This document shows positions 12,785 to 60,407 of a stretch of DNA of 64,000 bases, piece after piece. Where the stretch lies: assembly GCF_022682495.2 (NCBI RefSeq), contig NC_071391.1, forward strand, positions 79,077,161-79,141,160, in the 5' to 3' direction. Numbering within the stretch: the first letter of the stretch is position 1; the number at the start of each line of letters is the position of its first letter. Both the position numbers and the translations under genes were made by a program. Under the pieces are notes generated by a model. That model did not search any database. It was not told where the DNA came from and was given only the letters and a program-made list of their open reading frames with translations. The stretch comes from Desmodus rotundus. Its lineage: Eukaryota; Chordata; Mammalia; Chiroptera; Phyllostomidae.

Positions 12785-12800
12785 AAATTAAACTAAATTT
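12785..12800. repeat. Target-site duplication, left copy, intact L1
   Basis: AAATTAAACTAAATTT (16 bp) is repeated perfectly at 19901-19916. The pair brackets the whole L1 including its extra 3' tail, so everything in between arrived in one insertion. Confidence 0.9.
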
Positions 12801-12819
12801 TTTTTTTTTTTTTTTTTTT

Positions 12820-13164
12820 CATGACTGTCAAGAGCATTTATTTATTTTTGTTTGTTTCATACATTACTTTATTGTTGTTCAGTTACAATTGTCTGCATTT
12901 TCTCCCAACCATTCCACCCCCACTCCATCCAAACCCACCTCCCTCCCTTGCTTCCACCCTCCCCCTTGGTTTTCTCTATGTGTCCTTTATAGTAGTTCCT
13001 GAAAACCCTTCTCCCCACAATTCCCTCCCACTCCCCTCTGGCTATTATTAGATTGTTCTTAATTTCACTGTCTCTAGTTATTTTGATTGCTTTTTTCTTT
13101 TGTTGATTATATTCCAGTTAAAGGTGAGATCATATGGTATTTATCCCTTACCGCTTGGCTTATT

Positions 13165-13166
<2 letters not shown>
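12820..13166 (-). other. 3'-transduced segment: older L1 tail plus unique sequence
   Basis: Between the L1's own A33 tract and its terminal A-tail lies a diverged, 5'-truncated L1 3' end (homologous to 13200-13506), then a degenerate A-rich tail, then about 15 unique bases (minus strand CTCTTGACAGTCATG). An AATAAA (minus, 12842-12837) ends 17 nt before the terminal poly(A). The outer TSD includes this segment. This is what is expected when L1 transcription reads through the first poly(A) signal and uses a downstream one at the source locus. Confidence 0.8.

Positions 13167-13199
<33 letters not shown>
13167..13199 (-). repeat. Internal poly(A) tract of the L1 (33 T on plus strand)
   Basis: An uninterrupted run of 33 T marks the normal 3' end of the L1 body (minus-strand ..CAATAAAAA). 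Its length and purity point to a young element. Confidence 0.9.
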
Positions 13200-13201
<2 letters not shown>

Positions 13202-13446
13202 TGTTATGCAATTACAGTTGTATGCCTTTTCTCCCCATCCCTCTACCCCACCCCAGGTGAACCCACCTCCCTCCCCCCTCTCCACCCTCCCCCTTGGTTT
13301 TGTCCATGTGTCCTTTATAGTAGTTCCTGTAATACCCTCTTCCCACTATCCCCGCCCCCACCCCCCACCCCCGCCCTGGCTATTGTTAGATTGTTCTTAA
13401 CTTCAATGTCTCTGGTTATATTTTGTTTGCTTTTTTCTTCTATTGC

Positions 13447-16400
13447 TTATGTTCCAGTTAAAGGTGAGATCATATGGTACTTGTCCCTCACTTCCTGGCT
13501 TATTTCACTTAGCATAATGCTCTCCAGTTTCATCCATGCTGTTGCAAAGGGTATAAGCTCCTTCTTTCTCTCTGCTGCGTAGAATTCCATTGTGTAAATA
13601 TACCATAGTTTTTGGATCCACTCGTTTGCTGATGGGCACTTCGGTTGCTTCCAGTACTTGGCTATTGTAAATTGTGCTGCTATGAACATTGGGGTGCACA
13701 GATTCTTTTGGATTGGTGTTTCAGTCTTCTTAGGGTATAATCCCAGCAGCGGAATTACTGGGTCAAAGGGCAGTTCCATTTTTAGTTTTCTGAGGAAATT
13801 CCATATTGTTTTCCACAGTGGCCTCACCAGTCTGCATTCCCACCAACAGTGCACAAGGGTTCCCTTTTCTCCACATCCTCTCCAACATTTGTTTGTGGAT
13901 TTGTTTATGTTGGCCATTCTGACTGGTGTGAGATGATACCTCATTGTGGTTTTAATTTGCATCTCTCTGATGGCTAGTGATGCTGAGCATCTTTTCATAT
14001 GTCTCTGGGCCCTGTGTATGTCTTCCTTGGAGAAGTGTCTGTTCAAGTCCTTTGCCCATTTTTTAATTGGGTTGTTTGTCTTCCTGGAGTGGAGTCGAGT
14101 GAGTTCTTTATATATTTTGGAGATCAGGCCCTTGTCTGAGGTATCGTTGGCAAATATGTTTTCCCATACTGTTGGTACTCTTTGTAATTTGGTGCTGTTT
14201 TCTTTAGCCATGCAGAAGCTTTTTATTCTGATGAGGTCCCATTTGTTTATTCTTTCCTTTATGTCCCTTGCTTTAGGGGATGTGTCTGTGAGGATGTTGC
14301 TGCGTGGAATGTCTGAGATTTTCCTGCCAATGTTTTCCTCAAGGACTTTTATGGTGTTACGGCTTATATTTAAGTCTTTTATCCATCTTGAGTTTATTTT
14401 CGTGTATGGCGTAAGTTGGTGATCGAGTTTCATTTTTTTGCACGTAGCTGTCCAGATCTCCCAACACCATCTGTTGAAGAGGCTGTTTTTGCTCCATTTT
14501 ATGCTCCTGCCTCCTTTGTCAAATATTAATTGATCGTATAGACTTGAGTTTATTTCTGGGCTCTCTATTCTGTTCCATTGGTCTATGTGCCTGTTTTTAT
14601 GCCAGTACCAGGCTGTTTTGATTACAGTGGCCTTGTAATACAGTTTGATATCAGGTATTGTGATCCCTCCTGCTTTGTTTTTCTTTCTCAAAATTGCTGC
14701 AGCTATTCGAGGTCGTTTATGGTTCCATATGAATTTCTGCAATGTTTGTTCTATATCTGTGAAATATGTCATGGGTACTCTAATAGGGATTGCATTGAAT
14801 CTATAAATTGCTTTGGGTAGTATGGCCATTTTGATAATGTTGATTCTTCCAATCCATGAACATGGTACATGCTTCCATTTGTTTGTATCTTCCTTAATTT
14901 CTTTCTTCAGTGTTGTGTAGTTTTCTGAGTACAGGTCTTTTACCTCCTTGGTTAGGTTTATTCCTAGGTACTTTATTTTTCTTGTTGCTATATCGAATGG
15001 GATTTTTTTCCTGATTTCTGTTTCTGCAGTTTCGTTGCTGGTGTACAGGAATGCCTTTGATTTCTGGGTATTGACTCTGTATCCAGCTGTTTTGCCAAAT
15101 TCATTTATTAGGTCGAGTAGTTTTTGAGTGGAGTCTATAGGGTTTTCCATGTACACTATCATGTCGTCTGCAAACAGTGACAGTTTCATTTCCTCCTTTC
15201 CAATTTGGATGCCTTTTATTGCTTTTTCTTGTCTGATTGCTGTGGCTAGGACTTCCAATACTATGTTGAATAGGAGTGGTGAGAGAGGGCATCCTTGTCT
15301 AGTTCCTGATCTTAGTGGGAAAGCTCTAAGTTTTTGTCCATTGAGTGTGATGTTGGCTGTAGGTCTCTCATATATGGCCTTAATTATGTTGAGGACTGCT
15401 CCCTTTATTCCCACTTTGCTGAGTGTTTTTATCAGAAATGGGTGCTGTATCTTATCAAATGCTTTTTCCGCATCTATTGATATGATCATGTGATTTTTGT
15501 CTTTGCTGTTGTTGATGTGATGTATTATGTTTATTGATTTGCGAATATTGTACCATCCTTGCATCCCTGGGATGAATCCCACTTGGTCATGGTGGATGAT
15601 CTTTTTAATATATTGCTGGATGCGGTTTGCTAATATTTTGTTGAGAATTTTAGCGTCTATGTTCATCAGCGATATTGGCCTGAAGTTTTCTTTCTTCGTT
15701 GTGTCTTTATCTGGTTTTGGGATTAGGATGATGTTGGCTTCATAAAAAGAGTTTGGGAGTCTTCCATCAGTTTGGATTTTTTCGAATAGTCTGTGAAGGA
15801 TAGGGGTTAGTTCTTCCTTAAATGCTTTGTAGAAATCTCCTGTGAAACCATCTGGTCCAGGGCTTTTGTGTGATGGGATTTTCTTGATGACTTCTTCAAT
15901 TTCCTTTGCTGATATTGGTCTGTTCAGGTTTTCTGCTTCTTCTTCATTCAGTTTTGGAAGATTATATTTTTCTAGAAATGTGTCCATTTCATCTAGGTTT
16001 TCAAATTTCTTAGCATACAGGTCTTCATAGTAATTTCTTACGATCCTTTGTATTTCTGTGGTATCAGTTGTAATCTCTCCACTTTCATTTCTAATTCTGT
16101 TTATTTGGATCCTCTCTCTTTTTTTCTTGATGAGCCTACTTAAAGGCTTGTCGATTTTGTTTATCTTTTCAAAGAACCAGCTCCTGGATTCATTGATCCT
16201 TACAATTGTGCTTTTAGTCTCTATGTCATTTAGTTCTGCTCTGATCTTGGTTATTTCCTTCCTTCTGCTTGCTCTGGGCTGTCTTTGTTGTTGTTCCTCC
16301 AGTTCTTGTAGGCGTAGGGTTAGGTTGTTTGTGTGAACTGTTTCTAACTTCTTAAGGTAGGCCTGTATTGCTATGAACTTCCCTCTCAGGACTGCCTTTG

Positions 16401-17268
16401 CTGTGTCCCATAGGTTTTGGGTTGTTGTGAGTTCGTTTTCATTTGTTTCCAGGAAGTTTTTGATTTCTTCCCTAATCTCATTCTTGACCCATTCATTGTT
16501 TAATAGCATGCTATTCAGTCTCCATGCTTTTGAGTGTTTTGGGTTTTTACCCTTGGGGTTGGTTTCTAGTTTCAGACCCTTGTGGTCAGAGAAGATGCTT
16601 GATATGATTTCAATTTTCTTGAATTTGTTGAGGCTTGCTTTGTGTCCTATCATGTGGTCTATCTTTGAAAAAGTTCCATGGACACTTGAAAAGAACGTGT
16701 ATTTTGCTTCTTTGGGATGAAAAGCTCTGTATATATCAGTTAAGTCCATTTCCTCTAAGGTATTGTTAAGTGACACAATATCTTTGTTGATCTTTTGTTT
16801 GGAAGACCTGTCCATTTTTGATAGTGGGGTGTTAAAATCCCCTACTATAATTGTGTTGCTGTCAATATCTTTCTTGAAATCCTCCAAGATTTTCTTTATG
16901 TATTTGGGTGCTCCTATGTTGGGTGCATATATATTTACAATGTTTATGTCTTCTTGGTGGATTCTTCCTTTGAGTATTATGAAGTGACCTTCTGGGTCTC
17001 TCTTTATGGCCCTTCTTTGGAAATCTATTTTGTCAGATATGAGTATTGCTACCCCTGCTTTTTTTTCCTGTCCATTTGCTTGGAAGATTTGTTTCCAGCC
17101 CTTCACTTTCAGTCTGTGTAAGTCTTTTGTCCTGAGATGGGTTTCTTGTAGGCAGCATATGTGTGGGTCATGTTTTCTTATCCATTCAGCTGTTCTATGT
17201 CTTTTGATTGGAGCATTTAATCCATTTACGTTTAAGGTTATTATCGATAGGTAGTTATTCATTGCCAT
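13447..17268 (-). CDS. L1 ORF2p: endonuclease and reverse transcriptase, intact
   Basis: 1273 codons from ATG 17268, close to the usual mammalian ORF2p length. The N-terminal APE-type endonuclease has N13 (LNVNGLN), E42 (CLQETH), VGDFNTPLS and SDHKGL motifs. The reverse transcriptase has [26 protein letters not shown], a [15 protein letters not shown] motif and the catalytic FADD at residues 699-702. The C-terminal zinc-knuckle-like motif is C1128-X3-C1132-X7-H1140-X4-C1145. ORF2p nicks target DNA at TTTT/A-like sites and copies L1 RNA. No stop or frameshift is present. It lies 46 nt after ORF1 and would be translated by an unconventional reinitiation mechanism, as known for L1. It looks catalytically competent. 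Confidence 0.93.
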
Positions 17269-17314
17269 TATTTCCTACCTGTGTTCCTCTGTCTTTCTCT
17301 TTTCCTTCCTTTCC

Positions 17315-18247
17315 TTAAAGCAGTCCCTTTAGCATCTCTTGCAGAGCTGGTTTGGTGGAGCTGTATTCTTTTAGACTTCTTTTGTCTGGGAAACTCTTTA
17401 TTTGGTCTTCTATCTTGATTGAGAGCCTTGCTGGGTAAAGTAGTCTTGGTTGCAGGCCTCTGGTTCTCAGTACTTGGAATATTTTTTGCCATTCTCTTCT
17501 GGCTTGGAGCGTTTCCATTGAGAAGTCAGTTGCTAACCTTATTGGGGCTCCCTTGTATGTTACTTCCTTTTTCTCCCTTGCTGCCTTTAAGATCCTCTCT
17601 TTGTCTTGGAAATTTGCCATTTTAATTATGATGTGTCTTGCAGTGGGTCTCTTTGGGTTCCTCTTGTTTGGGACTCTCTGTGATTCCTGGATTTGGGTGA
17701 CTTTTTCTCTCCTCAGATTAGGGAAATTTTCCATCATTACTTTTTCAAACAGGTTTTCTATCCCTTGCTCTTCTTCTTCTCCTTCTGGTATTCCTATTAT
17801 ACGGATATTGTTACGTTTCATGTTGTCCTGCATTTCCCTTATTGCCTCTTCATTCTTTCTGAGCCTCTTTTCCTTTTCTTGCTCTTTCTGGGTGTTTTTT
17901 TCTACTTTGTCCTCCAGCTCGCTGATCCGATCCTCTGCTTCGTCAAGTCTGCTTTTAATTCCTTCTACTGTGTTCTTCAATTCAGAAATTGTATTCTTCA
18001 TTTCCTCTTGGCTCTTGTTGATATTTTCTATTTCCTTTTTCATGTTGATATAGTTTGCAGTGAGTTCATTGTAGTTTCCTTGTAGTTTCTGGTAGTTCTC
18101 TTTGAGCTCAGAGAGCTCAGTGAGTTTCCTGATGACCATTGCTTTGAACTCAGTATCTGATAGTTGAGTTGCCTCTTTTTCGGTTAGTATTCTTTCTGAG
18201 GCTTCCTCCTTTCCTTTCATTTGGGAATTGTTTCTTTGTCTTCCCAT
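17315..18247 (-). CDS. L1 ORF1p: RNA-binding chaperone, intact
   Basis: 310 codons starting MGRQRNNSQMKGKEE at 18247. A long heptad-rich coiled coil (about residues 45-135: ENYQKLQGNYNEL, ISELKNTVEGIKSRL, RISELEDKVEKN) drives trimer formation. It is followed by the RRM-like domain (NNIRIIGIPEGEEEEQGIEN, about 150-240) and the C-terminal domain (RHIIIKMANF, ERILKAAREKKEVTYKG, LQPRLLYPARLS). L1 ORF1p coats its own RNA and acts as a nucleic-acid chaperone in the ribonucleoprotein. Length and domain order are normal. The homologous ORF at 59475-60407 has the same length with few substitutions. Confidence 0.93.
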   Translation of the reverse strand: MGRQRNNSQMKGKEEASERILTEKEATQLSDTEFKAMVIRKLTELSELKENYQKLQGNYNELTANYINMKKEIENINKSQEEMKNTISELKNTVEGIKSRLDEAEDRISELEDKVEKNTQKEQEKEKRLRKNEEAIREMQDNMKRNNIRIIGIPEGEEEEQGIENLFEKVMMENFPNLRREKVTQIQESQRVPNKRNPKRPTARHIIIKMANFQDKERILKAAREKKEVTYKGAPIRLATDFSMETLQARREWQKIFQVLRTRGLQPRLLYPARLSIKIEDQIKSFPDKRSLKEYSSTKPALQEMLKGLL

Positions 18248-18460
18248 TGTTTGTGAGGCTCTTCTTGTTGGCCTCTGCGTCTTAAATTGCTTTGTTCTGA
18301 CTCCCTGGATTTATGATATGAACTTCTATGGTAGAATGCCAATGGGATTCGGTGGTGCTGTCTCCTTACTCTCCTGTGCTCACTGGTCTTGAGCTGACGT
18401 TTATGTGTTTAACACGGTCTAACTCTAGTCTTTTCAGCACTCCAGGTTTTGTTGTCTCAC

Positions 18461-19741
18461 CTGTGGGAAAAAGAGAAAGGGGGGGCAAAAGAAAAGAAAA
18501 AAAAAAAAACCACACACACACACAAAACAAACCAAAACAAAGATGGGAAGGAGGGAAAAAGGAAATAGGAAAGGAGGAAAGGAAGGAAGGAGGGAAGAAG
18601 GAATAAAGAAAGATCGGAGGCAAGATAAGAAGGAATTTTAGCAAAAATTAAAACATAGAAATAGATAAAAGAAGGCAGGAAGAAGACATAAAAATGGTAA
18701 AGGATGGGAGGAAGAAGGAATGAAAAAAAAGAAAAAAAGAGAGAGGAAGAAGGAATTCAGGGGGAAAGGAAAAAAAAGAAAAAGGATAAAAAAAAAAAAA
18801 AATCTTCTGTTGGCTTTAAACCGGTCAGGTTATTTCTGCTTGAGTCCTGTCTGTGCAACGGGAGGGTGTGGTTGGAAGGATTGGTTTCACTTTTCTCTCT
18901 TCCTGGGTCACACTCTTCGCTGTTTTGTAGGTGTGGTCCCTGGCAGTCAATCAGTCCGTTGATCAGCCAATCCAGCCGCTTTGGCTTGTGACGCGTGCGC
19001 GCGCAGCAGGGGAATCCAGCTGCTTTGGGTCTGTGACGTTATTTTGTGCCCTGAGCGCGCAGCCGGCGGACCAATCGAGCCGCCAGGGCTTGGAACGCTG
19101 GCGCGCAGGTGGCGGATTCAGCCGCCTTGGGGTTAGGACACTCGCCAGCAGCTTTGTATTTGGAAAACAGGCACCCAGCCGGCCCTGTGCTTGGTGAGCG
19201 CGCGCAGCCCGCTTAGCCACAGGCTCTGTGCTTGGGGGCCCGATCCAGCCGCCCGGGGCTTGAGTCTCTCGGGCGGGCGGGGCCGCCCTGGGACTGAATC
19301 ACGCGGCACTGGGTTCCGAGGTTTTGGGCCTGTGGGTGGAGCAGCTAGTCTCTGCTCCAAATTATCTCGGAGGTTTCAGGTGTGGGCGCCCCTCCGGGGT
19401 TTCAAGTGTGGGTCCCGTTCGCTAATCTGCTCGCGCGCGCGACTGGACCTCAGGTGAGCGTAGCAGTCCAGGGGTGGAGGGGGAGGGGCGCCAGGGGCCT
19501 CGGCTACTACCGAGAGTTCTCTAATTAGCCCCTGAGTGTCTCTATTTTCTTTTTCTTTTTGAGAAATTCCTCCTTTTCAAGCCCCTCTGGTCTAATCAAG
19601 CACCTGGCTGCTCACAGCGCAGCCTGGCCCTCTCCCAAGACTCCTGCAGGAGCCCCTGCGCCAGGGCTGGCGCTTCTGCCGCCCTTGTACCGCGCGGTCC
19701 TGGGTCCCGTGGACCTTATTGTCCTTGAGCACTCTTCTTAC
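18461..19741 (-). other. Spliceable intron (1281 nt) inside the L1 5' UTR
   Basis: Minus strand: the exon ends ..GATCTGACG at 19742, the donor is GTAAGAAG from 19741, and the acceptor is CTCTTTTTCCCACAG ending at 18461 before GTGAGACAAC. The young L1 at 59.1 kb has GATCTGACG joined directly to GTGAGACAAC (59262/59263), exactly as splicing would produce. The intron contains the CpG-rich promoter block and a roughly 330-nt pyrimidine-rich stretch before the acceptor. Confidence 0.85.
18470..18800 (-). repeat. Purine-rich low-complexity tract (plus), polypyrimidine on the L1 sense strand
   Basis: GGAAGGAGG/GAAAAAAAG-type sequence dominates the plus strand. On the transcribed L1 strand it is a long CT tract ending at the 3' splice acceptor, so it may serve as an extended polypyrimidine tract. 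Confidence 0.8.
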
Positions 19742-19900
19742 CGTCAGATCTTTCAGTGTCCTCTATCTTTGGTCTCTGATCTTCGTATATGCTGGAATAC
19801 TGTTGGCTGTTCGCTCTGCTCCTCAGATCAGCTAGGTATTTCCCTGGCGTTGAGGGGAAGTGGACTCCGCTCCCACCTATGTTGCCGCCATCTTGTCTCC

Positions 19901-19916
19901 AAATTAAACTAAATTT
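19901..19916. repeat. Target-site duplication, right copy, intact L1
   Basis: Perfect match to 12785-12800. It fixes the L1 5' end at 19900. Confidence 0.9.
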
Positions 19917-46418: not shown

Positions 46419-47109
46419 AGGAGAGAGAACATAGCAGCGAGATAGGTGGGAGTGGAGTTAATTTCCCCCTGCACCTGGGTGAATCACCTACCCATTCTAC
46501 TGAGAAACAAAGCGAACAGCCAAAAGCAGCCCTGCGTTTATGAAGATAGGAGACCAAAAAGTACAGAGGACACTGAGAAAACAGGAGGTAAGGGGATTGC
46601 TTCAGGACAAAAAGGTCCCTGGGACCAACTCGGGACCAGCACAGCTGCAGCCCCAGGCCCACCCCTGCTGGGCCTGCCGCAGGACTTCTGGGAGAGAGCC
46701 GGGTTAACGGCCCCCTCCCCTGCCAAACAAGGCCTGAGCAACACTGTGAGAGACATGGTTGCCTGAAGTCGCAGGGAGGGGAATAAGGACGAAGTGGAAA
46801 ACCCAGGGAGACCGCAGGCGCTGGCCGAGGAGAGTTGAAAGTTGGGCCGCATGGGATCCTGATCCCGACAGCCCCCGGCCTAGCTGGAGAGGTGGGCTGT
46901 GTGAGAGGTCAGGCCCTTCCTTGTACCGAGGGAGCCACAGGATTGAGCAGGAGGATTTTTCCCCAAAAGAGTACAACCCTCTGGGGCACTTTGGGGAATT
47001 CCCCTGCAGCAACAGCTCCAGTCTCCTCTCCACCCCCCCACCCATCCGGGGACTATGCGCACCTCATCTCGGAGGGAGCTGAGACTACAGGCACTACCTG
47101 GGCCAGGGT

Positions 47110-59035: not shown

Positions 59036-59261
59036 TAAATATGAATTTTTCTCCCTAAGGTCCTGGAGGCAGAATACATTTTTTCAAGTAAAAGAAAGTT
59101 ATAGGGGGGAAGATGGCGGCAACATAGGTGGGAGCGGAATCCACTTCCCCTCAACGCCAGGGAAATACCTAGCTGATCTGAGGAGCAGAGCGAACAGCCA
59201 ACAGTATTCCAGCATATACAAAGATCAGAGACCAAAGATAGAGGACATTGAAAGATCTGAC

Positions 59262-59263
59262 GG
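59262..59263 (+). other. Exon-exon junction in genomic L1 copy
   Basis: GATCTGACG is joined to GTGAGACAAC with no insertion or loss. In the unspliced relative these are separated by GTAAGAAG...TTTCCCACAG. Confidence 0.85.
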
Positions 59264-59474
59264 TGAGACAACAAAACCTGGAGTGCTGAAAAGACTAGAG
59301 TTAGACCGTGTTAAAAACATAAACGTCAGCTCAAGACCAGTGAGCACAGGAGAGTAAGGAGACAGCACCACCGAATCCCATTGGCATTCTACCATAGAAG
59401 TTCATATCATAAACCCAGGGAGTCTAACAAAGCAATTTAAGAAGCAGAGGCCAACAAGAAGAGCCTCACAAACA

Positions 59475-60407
59475 ATGGGAAGACAAAGAAACAATTCCCA
59501 AATGAAAGGAAAGGAGGAAGTCTCAGAAAGAATACTAACCGAAAAAGAGGCAAGTCAACTATCAGATACTGAGTTCAAAGCAATGGTCATCAGGAAGCTC
59601 ACTGAGCTCTCTGAGCTCAAAGAGAACTACCAGAAACTACAAGGAAACTACAATGAACTCGCTGCAAACTATATCAACATGAAAAAGGAAATAGAAACTA
59701 TCAACAAGAGCCAAGAGGAAATGAAGAATACAATTTCTGAATTGAAGAACACAGTAGAAGGAATGAAAAGCAGACTTGATGAAGCAGAGGATCGGATCAG
59801 CGAGCTGGAGGATAAAGTAGAAAAAAACACCCAGAAGGAGCAAGAAAAGGAAAAGAGGCTCAGAAAGAATGAAGAGGCAATAAGGGAAATGCAGGACAAC
59901 ATGAAACGTAACAATATCCGTATAATAGGAATACCAGAAGGAGAAGAAGAAGAGCAAGGGATAGAAAACCTGTTTGAAAAAATAATGATGGAAAATTTCC
60001 CTAATCTGAGGAGAGAAAAAGTCACCCAAATCCAGGAATCACAGAGAGTCCCAAACAACAGGAACCCAAAGAGGTGCACTGCAAGACACATCATAATTAA
60101 AATGGCAAATTTCCAAGACAAAGAGAGGATCTTAAAGGCAGCAAGGGAGAAAAAGGAAGTAACATACAAGGGAGCCCCAATAAGGTTAGCAACTGACTTC
60201 TCAATGGAAATGCTCCAAGCCACAAGAGAATGGCAAAAAATATTCCAAGTAATGAGAACCAGAGGCCTGCAACCAAGACTACTTTACCCAGCAAGGCTCT
60301 CAATGAAGATAGAAGACCAAATAAATAGTTTCCCAGACAAAAGAAGTCTAAAAGAATACAGCTCCACCAAACCAGCTCTGCAAGAGATGCTAAAGGGACT
60401 GCTTTAA
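59475..60407 (+). CDS. L1 ORF1p, intact
   Basis: 310 codons from ATG 59475, same length and domain order as the ORF1 at 17315-18247: coiled coil (ENYQKLQGNYNELAANYINM, then RISELEDKVEKNTQKE), RRM-like domain (NNIRIIGIPEGEEEEQGIEN) and C-terminal domain (ERILKAAREKKEVTYKGAP, then LQPRLLYPARLSMKIEDQIN). Only scattered substitutions separate the two, for example MEMLQATREW for METLQARREW. It could produce an RNA chaperone, though its partner ORF2 in the same copy is broken. Confidence 0.9.
   Translation: MGRQRNNSQMKGKEEVSERILTEKEASQLSDTEFKAMVIRKLTELSELKENYQKLQGNYNELAANYINMKKEIETINKSQEEMKNTISELKNTVEGMKSRLDEAEDRISELEDKVEKNTQKEQEKEKRLRKNEEAIREMQDNMKRNNIRIIGIPEGEEEEQGIENLFEKIMMENFPNLRREKVTQIQESQRVPNNRNPKRCTARHIIIKMANFQDKERILKAAREKKEVTYKGAPIRLATDFSMEMLQATREWQKIFQVMRTRGLQPRLLYPARLSMKIEDQINSFPDKRSLKEYSSTKPALQEMLKGLL

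Follow-up and report, generated by a model that had tools for sequence, protein, structure and literature searches.

Bat L1 copies that lack a 1281-nt 5' UTR segment appear to derive from repeated splicing and retrotransposition

Two L1 elements in a 64,000-nt stretch of bat DNA (the window) raise the question of whether the 5' UTR of an L1 lineage can hold an intron whose removal is passed on to new genomic copies. One element, on the minus strand, is intact and has a donor, GACG/GTAAGAAG, at 19742/19741 and an acceptor, TTTTTCCCACAG/GTGAG, at 18461/18460, with 1281 nt between them (slashes within sequences mark exon boundaries). The other, on the plus strand, reads GACG/GTGAG at 59262/59263, with no letters between, as expected of an exon-exon junction. 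A preliminary description of this DNA had called the segment a GT-AG intron, took the shorter copy as proof of splicing, and proposed checks that included a genome-wide count of the exact junction, independent target-site duplications (TSDs) and junction-spanning RNA reads. We read both junctions on the sequence and confirmed the position of the segment and its GT-AG ends; the intron begins GTAAGAAG and the acceptor of the intact L1 is CCCACAG/GTGAG. The features of the two elements are as follows.

12801..19900, minus strand: whole intact L1 insertion, bounded by TSDs, and including both the leader GGAGAC and a 3' transduction that has a second poly-A
19901-19916 and 12785-12800, minus strand: 16-nt TSD of the intact L1, AAATTTAGTTTAATTT
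19742..19894, minus strand: L1 exon 1, the first 153 nt of the 5' UTR, starting AAGATGGCGG; kept in spliced copies
18461..19741, minus strand: putative 5' UTR intron, 1281 nt, GTAAGAAG...CCCACAG; removed exactly at 401 places in the genome
18463..18803, minus strand: AG-free stretch of 341 nt ahead of the terminal AG; 87% pyrimidine, counting the AG
18248..18460, minus strand: remainder of the 5' UTR past the acceptor, beginning GTGAGACAAC
17315..18247, minus strand: ORF1 of the intact L1, 310 codons, open
13447..17268, minus strand: ORF2 of the intact L1, 1273 codons, open
59090..59103, plus strand: 5' TSD of the spliced copy, AAAAGAAAGTTATA; its 3' partner, AAAAGAATGTTATA, lies past the window end and has one mismatch (by eye)
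59110..59262, plus strand: exon 1 of the spliced L1 copy
59263..59474, plus strand: 5' UTR remainder of the spliced copy, abutting exon 1
59475..60407, plus strand: ORF1 of the spliced copy, 310 codons, open

The two elements match closely on both sides of the junction. By BLAST, the spliced copy is 97.5% identical to the intact one upstream of the junction (159 nt, including 6 past it) and 97.7% identical downstream (4756 nt). With G and GT common to both ends, the breakpoint of the deletion can slide across four positions, and at only one of these are the ends GT and AG. The start of the spliced copy had been put at 59104, but the 6 nt from there on are a G leader, and L1 proper begins at 59110. 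The ORF2 region of this copy has several broken frames and extends beyond the window end. At the 3' end of the intact L1 (12785-13200, minus strand), a poly-A is followed by the 3' fragment of an old L1, a second poly-A and the TSD, the arrangement of a 3' transduction.

The junction is found at 401 places in the 2.12-Gb genome. We searched with a 24-nt junction word allowing up to two mismatches; the reversed-pattern control gave no match, placing the junction in the window beyond chance. The 100 places that were listed of the 401 all matched without a mismatch. The intact donor word had 2950 matches and the intact acceptor word 3372, each with a control of 0. The spliced share is therefore 401/3351 (12.0%; 95% interval 10.9-13.1) relative to donors and 401/3773 (10.6%; 95% interval 9.7-11.7) relative to acceptors, both being estimates, because the words may differ in their sensitivity to age and duplicated segments are still counted.

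The splice sites are conserved in copies that retain the intron. In all 52 unspliced copies compared, the intron starts with GTAAGAAG, and the same donor is present in 23 of 23 pairable unspliced copies that were not chosen by donor (20 distinct insertions). Conversely, the acceptor CACAG is present in 29 of 29 pairable copies selected by donor only (the 30th, L066, was unpairable). The absence of AG from the 341-nt stretch is within expectation for its base content (P 0.22), and AG exclusion before the acceptor was rejected on that ground. Because GTGAG comes right after the acceptor, the spliced junction, ACG/GTGAGA (for example at 59259-59268 in the window), rebuilds a donor-like site. Scattered deletion endpoints, which had been named beforehand as evidence that would count against splicing, were checked in part: internal deletions were seen in two of the 52 unspliced copies (L064 and L067), and their endpoints match neither each other nor the splice sites.

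Other copies bear on the history of the two sites. At the position homologous to the donor, an older L1 of the window (46.4-52.6 kb) reads GGAG/GTAAGGGG (46581-46595, plus strand), and inspection by eye revealed no clear CAG/GTGAG acceptor in it, which suggests that the donor position may predate the acceptor. In three further copies (L072, L090 and L094), unrelated sequence meets L1 at or adjoining the acceptor; in L090 the joined sequence is CpG-rich at its start and ends after an ATG. The three may be plain 5' truncations, and L090 is a possible host-exon fusion.

Spliced copies have the hallmarks of retrotransposition. We compared the 5' and 3' flanks of eight spliced copies, including that in the window, and found a TSD after the poly-A in seven, all different, as independent insertions had been predicted to have. 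The TSDs were 14 nt in L011, 17 nt in L015, 15 nt in L023 and L033, and only 9 nt in L010; those of L012 and the window copy have one mismatch each and were extended by eye. No TSD was seen in the flanks of L016. Among the first 30 spliced copies, three (L009, L026 and L027) lack part of exon 1 through 5' truncation, yet their junction is exact, as expected if reverse transcription used RNA that was already spliced. Between the TSD and the L1 start (just upstream of AAGATGG) are leaders of about 1-25 nt, which differ in most copies and are common to some: GGACTCC in L037 and L058, AGAGACGGG in L076, L043, L054 and L085, and TGGAGGCGG in L013 and L028. Common leaders may mark source elements. 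The 5' flanks of L003, L004, L005 and L006, on C363 and C15, are identical over 268 nt; by this identity the four are one insertion multiplied by segmental duplication.

Splicing removes a CpG-rich block and leaves the coding capacity. The intron has 61 CpG; the 171 nt that precede the donor have 6, and the stretch from the acceptor to ORF1 has 4. Among 38 spliced copies, one of them unreadable, 24 have an ORF1 that is open along all 310 codons. Spliced copies keep the first 153 nt, starting with AAGATGGCGG, which we take to be YY1-like. By analogy with human L1, the removed block would be a promoter, and spliced copies would have weakened or lost promoter activity. The preliminary description had stated outright that the intron carries the promoter block and that the progeny keep their ORFs and lose their promoter. 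The CpG richness and the open ORF1 bear out part of this; the word promoter goes further than the evidence, given that the first 153 nt stay, and so does the view that the progeny are only losers, since the pair L091 and L092 described below look like offspring of a host-driven source.

The spliced copies arose many times. Our comparison, across exon 1 and 229 nt of exon 2, took in 38 spliced and 52 unspliced copies (90 of 98 sequences; L026, L066, L072, L074, L081, L086, L090 and L094 were lost). The spliced rows were the first 30 junction places listed (contigs C1 and C2), eight copies with GACA/GTGAG, and the window copy; this sample was picked by the junction, so the exactness of its junctions is not independent evidence. 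The unspliced rows were the first 30 donor matches (C1), the eight best matches of another search, and further ones from the GACA/GTGAG search. Subfamily variants occur across both classes, and two sets of sequences that are identical over 362 columns hold both spliced and unspliced members. A single clade of spliced copies was rejected with all 38 and 52 rows (AU p 2.3e-5; 20 state changes needed) and with a reduced set of 36 and 49 rows (AU p 1.3e-9; again 20 changes, with starred branches forcing at least seven). The reduced set dropped L004-L006 (the insertion of L003, with identical flanks), L031 (long branch), and L092 (leader common with L091). A spliced copy (L037) and an unspliced one (L058) are identical over the compared region and have the 7-nt leader GGACTCC in common, which indicates that one source probably produced both forms.

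We consider it very probable, on the strength of these comparisons, that repeated splicing and retrotransposition, and not one deletion, explains the spliced copies. On this view, a spliceosomal intron would lie in the 5' UTR of the bat L1 lineage. Transcription would start near the L1 5' end, and in a fraction of the transcripts splicing would join the donor that follows nt 153 to the acceptor located 213 nt ahead of ORF1. Such an mRNA would still encode ORF1p and ORF2p and would presumably be retrotransposed in cis, so that its copies show a precise exon-exon junction together with the usual features of L1 insertions. These events, repeated many times on old and young haplotypes, would account for the 11-12% of copies with the region that are spliced. 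From the sites, the junction, its copy number, the TSDs, and the multiple origins, all observed in the DNA, we infer the splicing of the RNA itself. The single copy in the window was too little for the proof first claimed of it; the reading drawn from it stands, through the 401 copies, their TSDs and their many origins.

Some spliced copies may themselves have been sources. Spliced and unspliced labels were more clustered than when shuffled: 20 changes versus about 27 in both exon trees, and 11 versus 20 in the ORF1 tree (made without L072, L090 and L094), in which the unspliced sample was biased, with few comparable unspliced ORF1 sequences, so that this tree is a weak test of second-generation copies. 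An unspliced row was among the nearest for 25 of 38 spliced rows, versus 29.8 in shuffles. Given such clustering, some spliced copies may have had a source in common or a parent that was itself spliced.

Candidates are L091 and L092, which may point to a host promoter. The two copies (C14:45.889 Mb and C14:48.186 Mb) are both spliced with the same -1 base, GACA/GTGAG, and group as sisters in the ORF1 tree, a quick one (SH-aLRT 87). Their flanks are unrelated, barring one stretch directly before L1, and this leader plus the L1 start is found at these two places only (32-nt pattern, up to three mismatches). The leader matches C2:35393247-35393289 over 42 of 43 nt in L091 and 32 of 34 nt in L092. 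Both matches end at CAG, where the C2 locus goes on with GTAATTGG, making a CAG/GT donor there, and one shared base sets both copies apart from the C2 locus. The locus (C2:35392960-35393400, 441 nt) is 61% GC with 41 CpG, and we take the stretch for a putative host promoter and exon. The simplest reading that these matches suggest is a transcript from a CpG-island-like host promoter, in which the host exon was spliced to an acceptor 9 nt before L1 and the L1 intron was removed too. The source L1 may itself have been a spliced copy, or the host and L1 introns may have been cut out of a single transcript; trans-splicing is also possible. A search for the source with 31 nt of leader and L1 start gave 30 matches with up to two mismatches, none of them near C2:35.39 Mb; the pattern is exact only in L091 and L092, and a more diverged or unassembled source would escape it. 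Two insertions at different places thus share a probable host exon that ends at a donor, and we regard the pair as one probable case of host-promoter capture.

These observations bear on a mixed origin, compatible with repeated splicing, in which most spliced copies are first-generation and some are themselves sources, for example behind a host promoter. The clustered labels and the common host-derived, exon-like fragment of L091 and L092, with its CAG/GT end, the same GACA junction and different flanks, speak for it. However, there are only two such copies, the search of the assembly did not turn up their source L1, and the L1 intron could have left together with the host intron in one transcript from an unspliced source; we find a mixed origin quite conceivable and lean slightly against it. 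We think it unlikely that the intron marks a regular, possibly maintained isoform, with some promoter-less spliced progeny remobilised by splicing onto a CpG-rich host promoter and exon and the lineage persisting on borrowed promoters. What suggests this is the placement of the CpG block inside an intron that has a donor, a long pyrimidine tract and a CAG/GTGAG acceptor that rebuilds a donor-like site.

A single ancestral deletion at the 3-nt GGT microhomology, followed by multiplication of the resulting short-leader subfamily, would fit both the GGT common to the two breakpoints and the somewhat clustered positions of spliced copies on the trees. However, spliced and unspliced copies have identical haplotypes (L037 and L058 also the same leader, GGACTCC), the deletion ends exactly at GT-AG, and the AU tests reject one clade. 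As the sole explanation, one deletion lineage is ruled out by the AU tests, and we hold it very improbable as an account of the data. Least probable of all is that the 1281 nt were inserted into a short-leader L1 and that the 59-kb copy is ancestral: an insertion would also produce two length states, but the long form is the majority of genome copies, and the older L1 described above (46.4-52.6 kb) reads GGAG/GTAAGGGG where the donor would be, is 69% similar to L1 nt 3-271, past the donor into the intron, and has about 0.95 kb between its two matching leader stretches.

Repeated splicing and retrotransposition places these copies beside the spliced integrated retrotransposed elements (SpIREs) of human L1. 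That copies of the 59-kb type are SpIREs in a bat is well supported by the DNA: the deletion is bounded exactly by GT-AG sites that are present in full-length L1s, a TSD and poly-A are present in seven of eight copies, and formation from unspliced sources was recurrent and independent (AU tests, two trees). Titles and abstract openings of freely accessible papers among the matches listed reported no SpIREs in bats. Of related work, the text available for PMC4072516 leaves the megabat L1 leader without a reconstruction, and PMC10901741, in its accessible part, treats SAFB and L1 splice sites. The window also has a Ves-like SINE at about 10.06-10.27 kb; it carries AGGGCACATG, which fits the motif for Ves_a2 and Ves_b, and has two mismatches to a 21-nt head word, which supports a bat origin of the DNA. 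All Yangochiroptera are believed to carry Ves (PMC8466645).

The bat copies resemble the human intra-5' UTR SpIREs in kind and differ in position and share. According to the available text on SpIRE97/622 and 97/790 (Larson et al. 2018, PMC5860796), both systems have lost an internal 5' UTR intron and have kept the ORFs, with an exact junction, L1 hallmarks and many copies. The human donor is after nt 97, with acceptors at 622 and 790, whereas the bat donor is after nt 153, and the bat intron, in contrast to those of human SpIREs, is 1.28 kb with a long pyrimidine tract. Human SpIREs make up 131 of 6609 annotated full-length L1s (about 2%), whereas the bat share is 401/3351 (12.0%), by different counting methods. 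SpIREs are thus already known in human L1, in which they were defined; new here are the bat L1, with splice sites at other positions, a spliced share about five to six times higher, and one probable host-promoter capture. The bat case suggests that splicing is a cost borne by mammalian L1s in general, at a variable rate, and it provides a second system, whose several hundred genomic copies record how splice sites in an L1 leader evolve.

The pair L091 and L092 has a human counterpart in the SpIRE driven by RAP1GDS1, for which the available text describes an intronic source L1, distinct TSDs, and RNA reads (PMC13174262, 2026). Both cases have more than one insertion in which host exon sequence (putative in the bat) that ends at a donor directly precedes an L1 whose 5' UTR is spliced. 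The bat pair differs in that it consists of two insertions carrying a single transduced stretch, 34-43 nt long. If the bat pair is what it appears to be, capture of host promoters by spliced L1s would be known from two mammalian orders.
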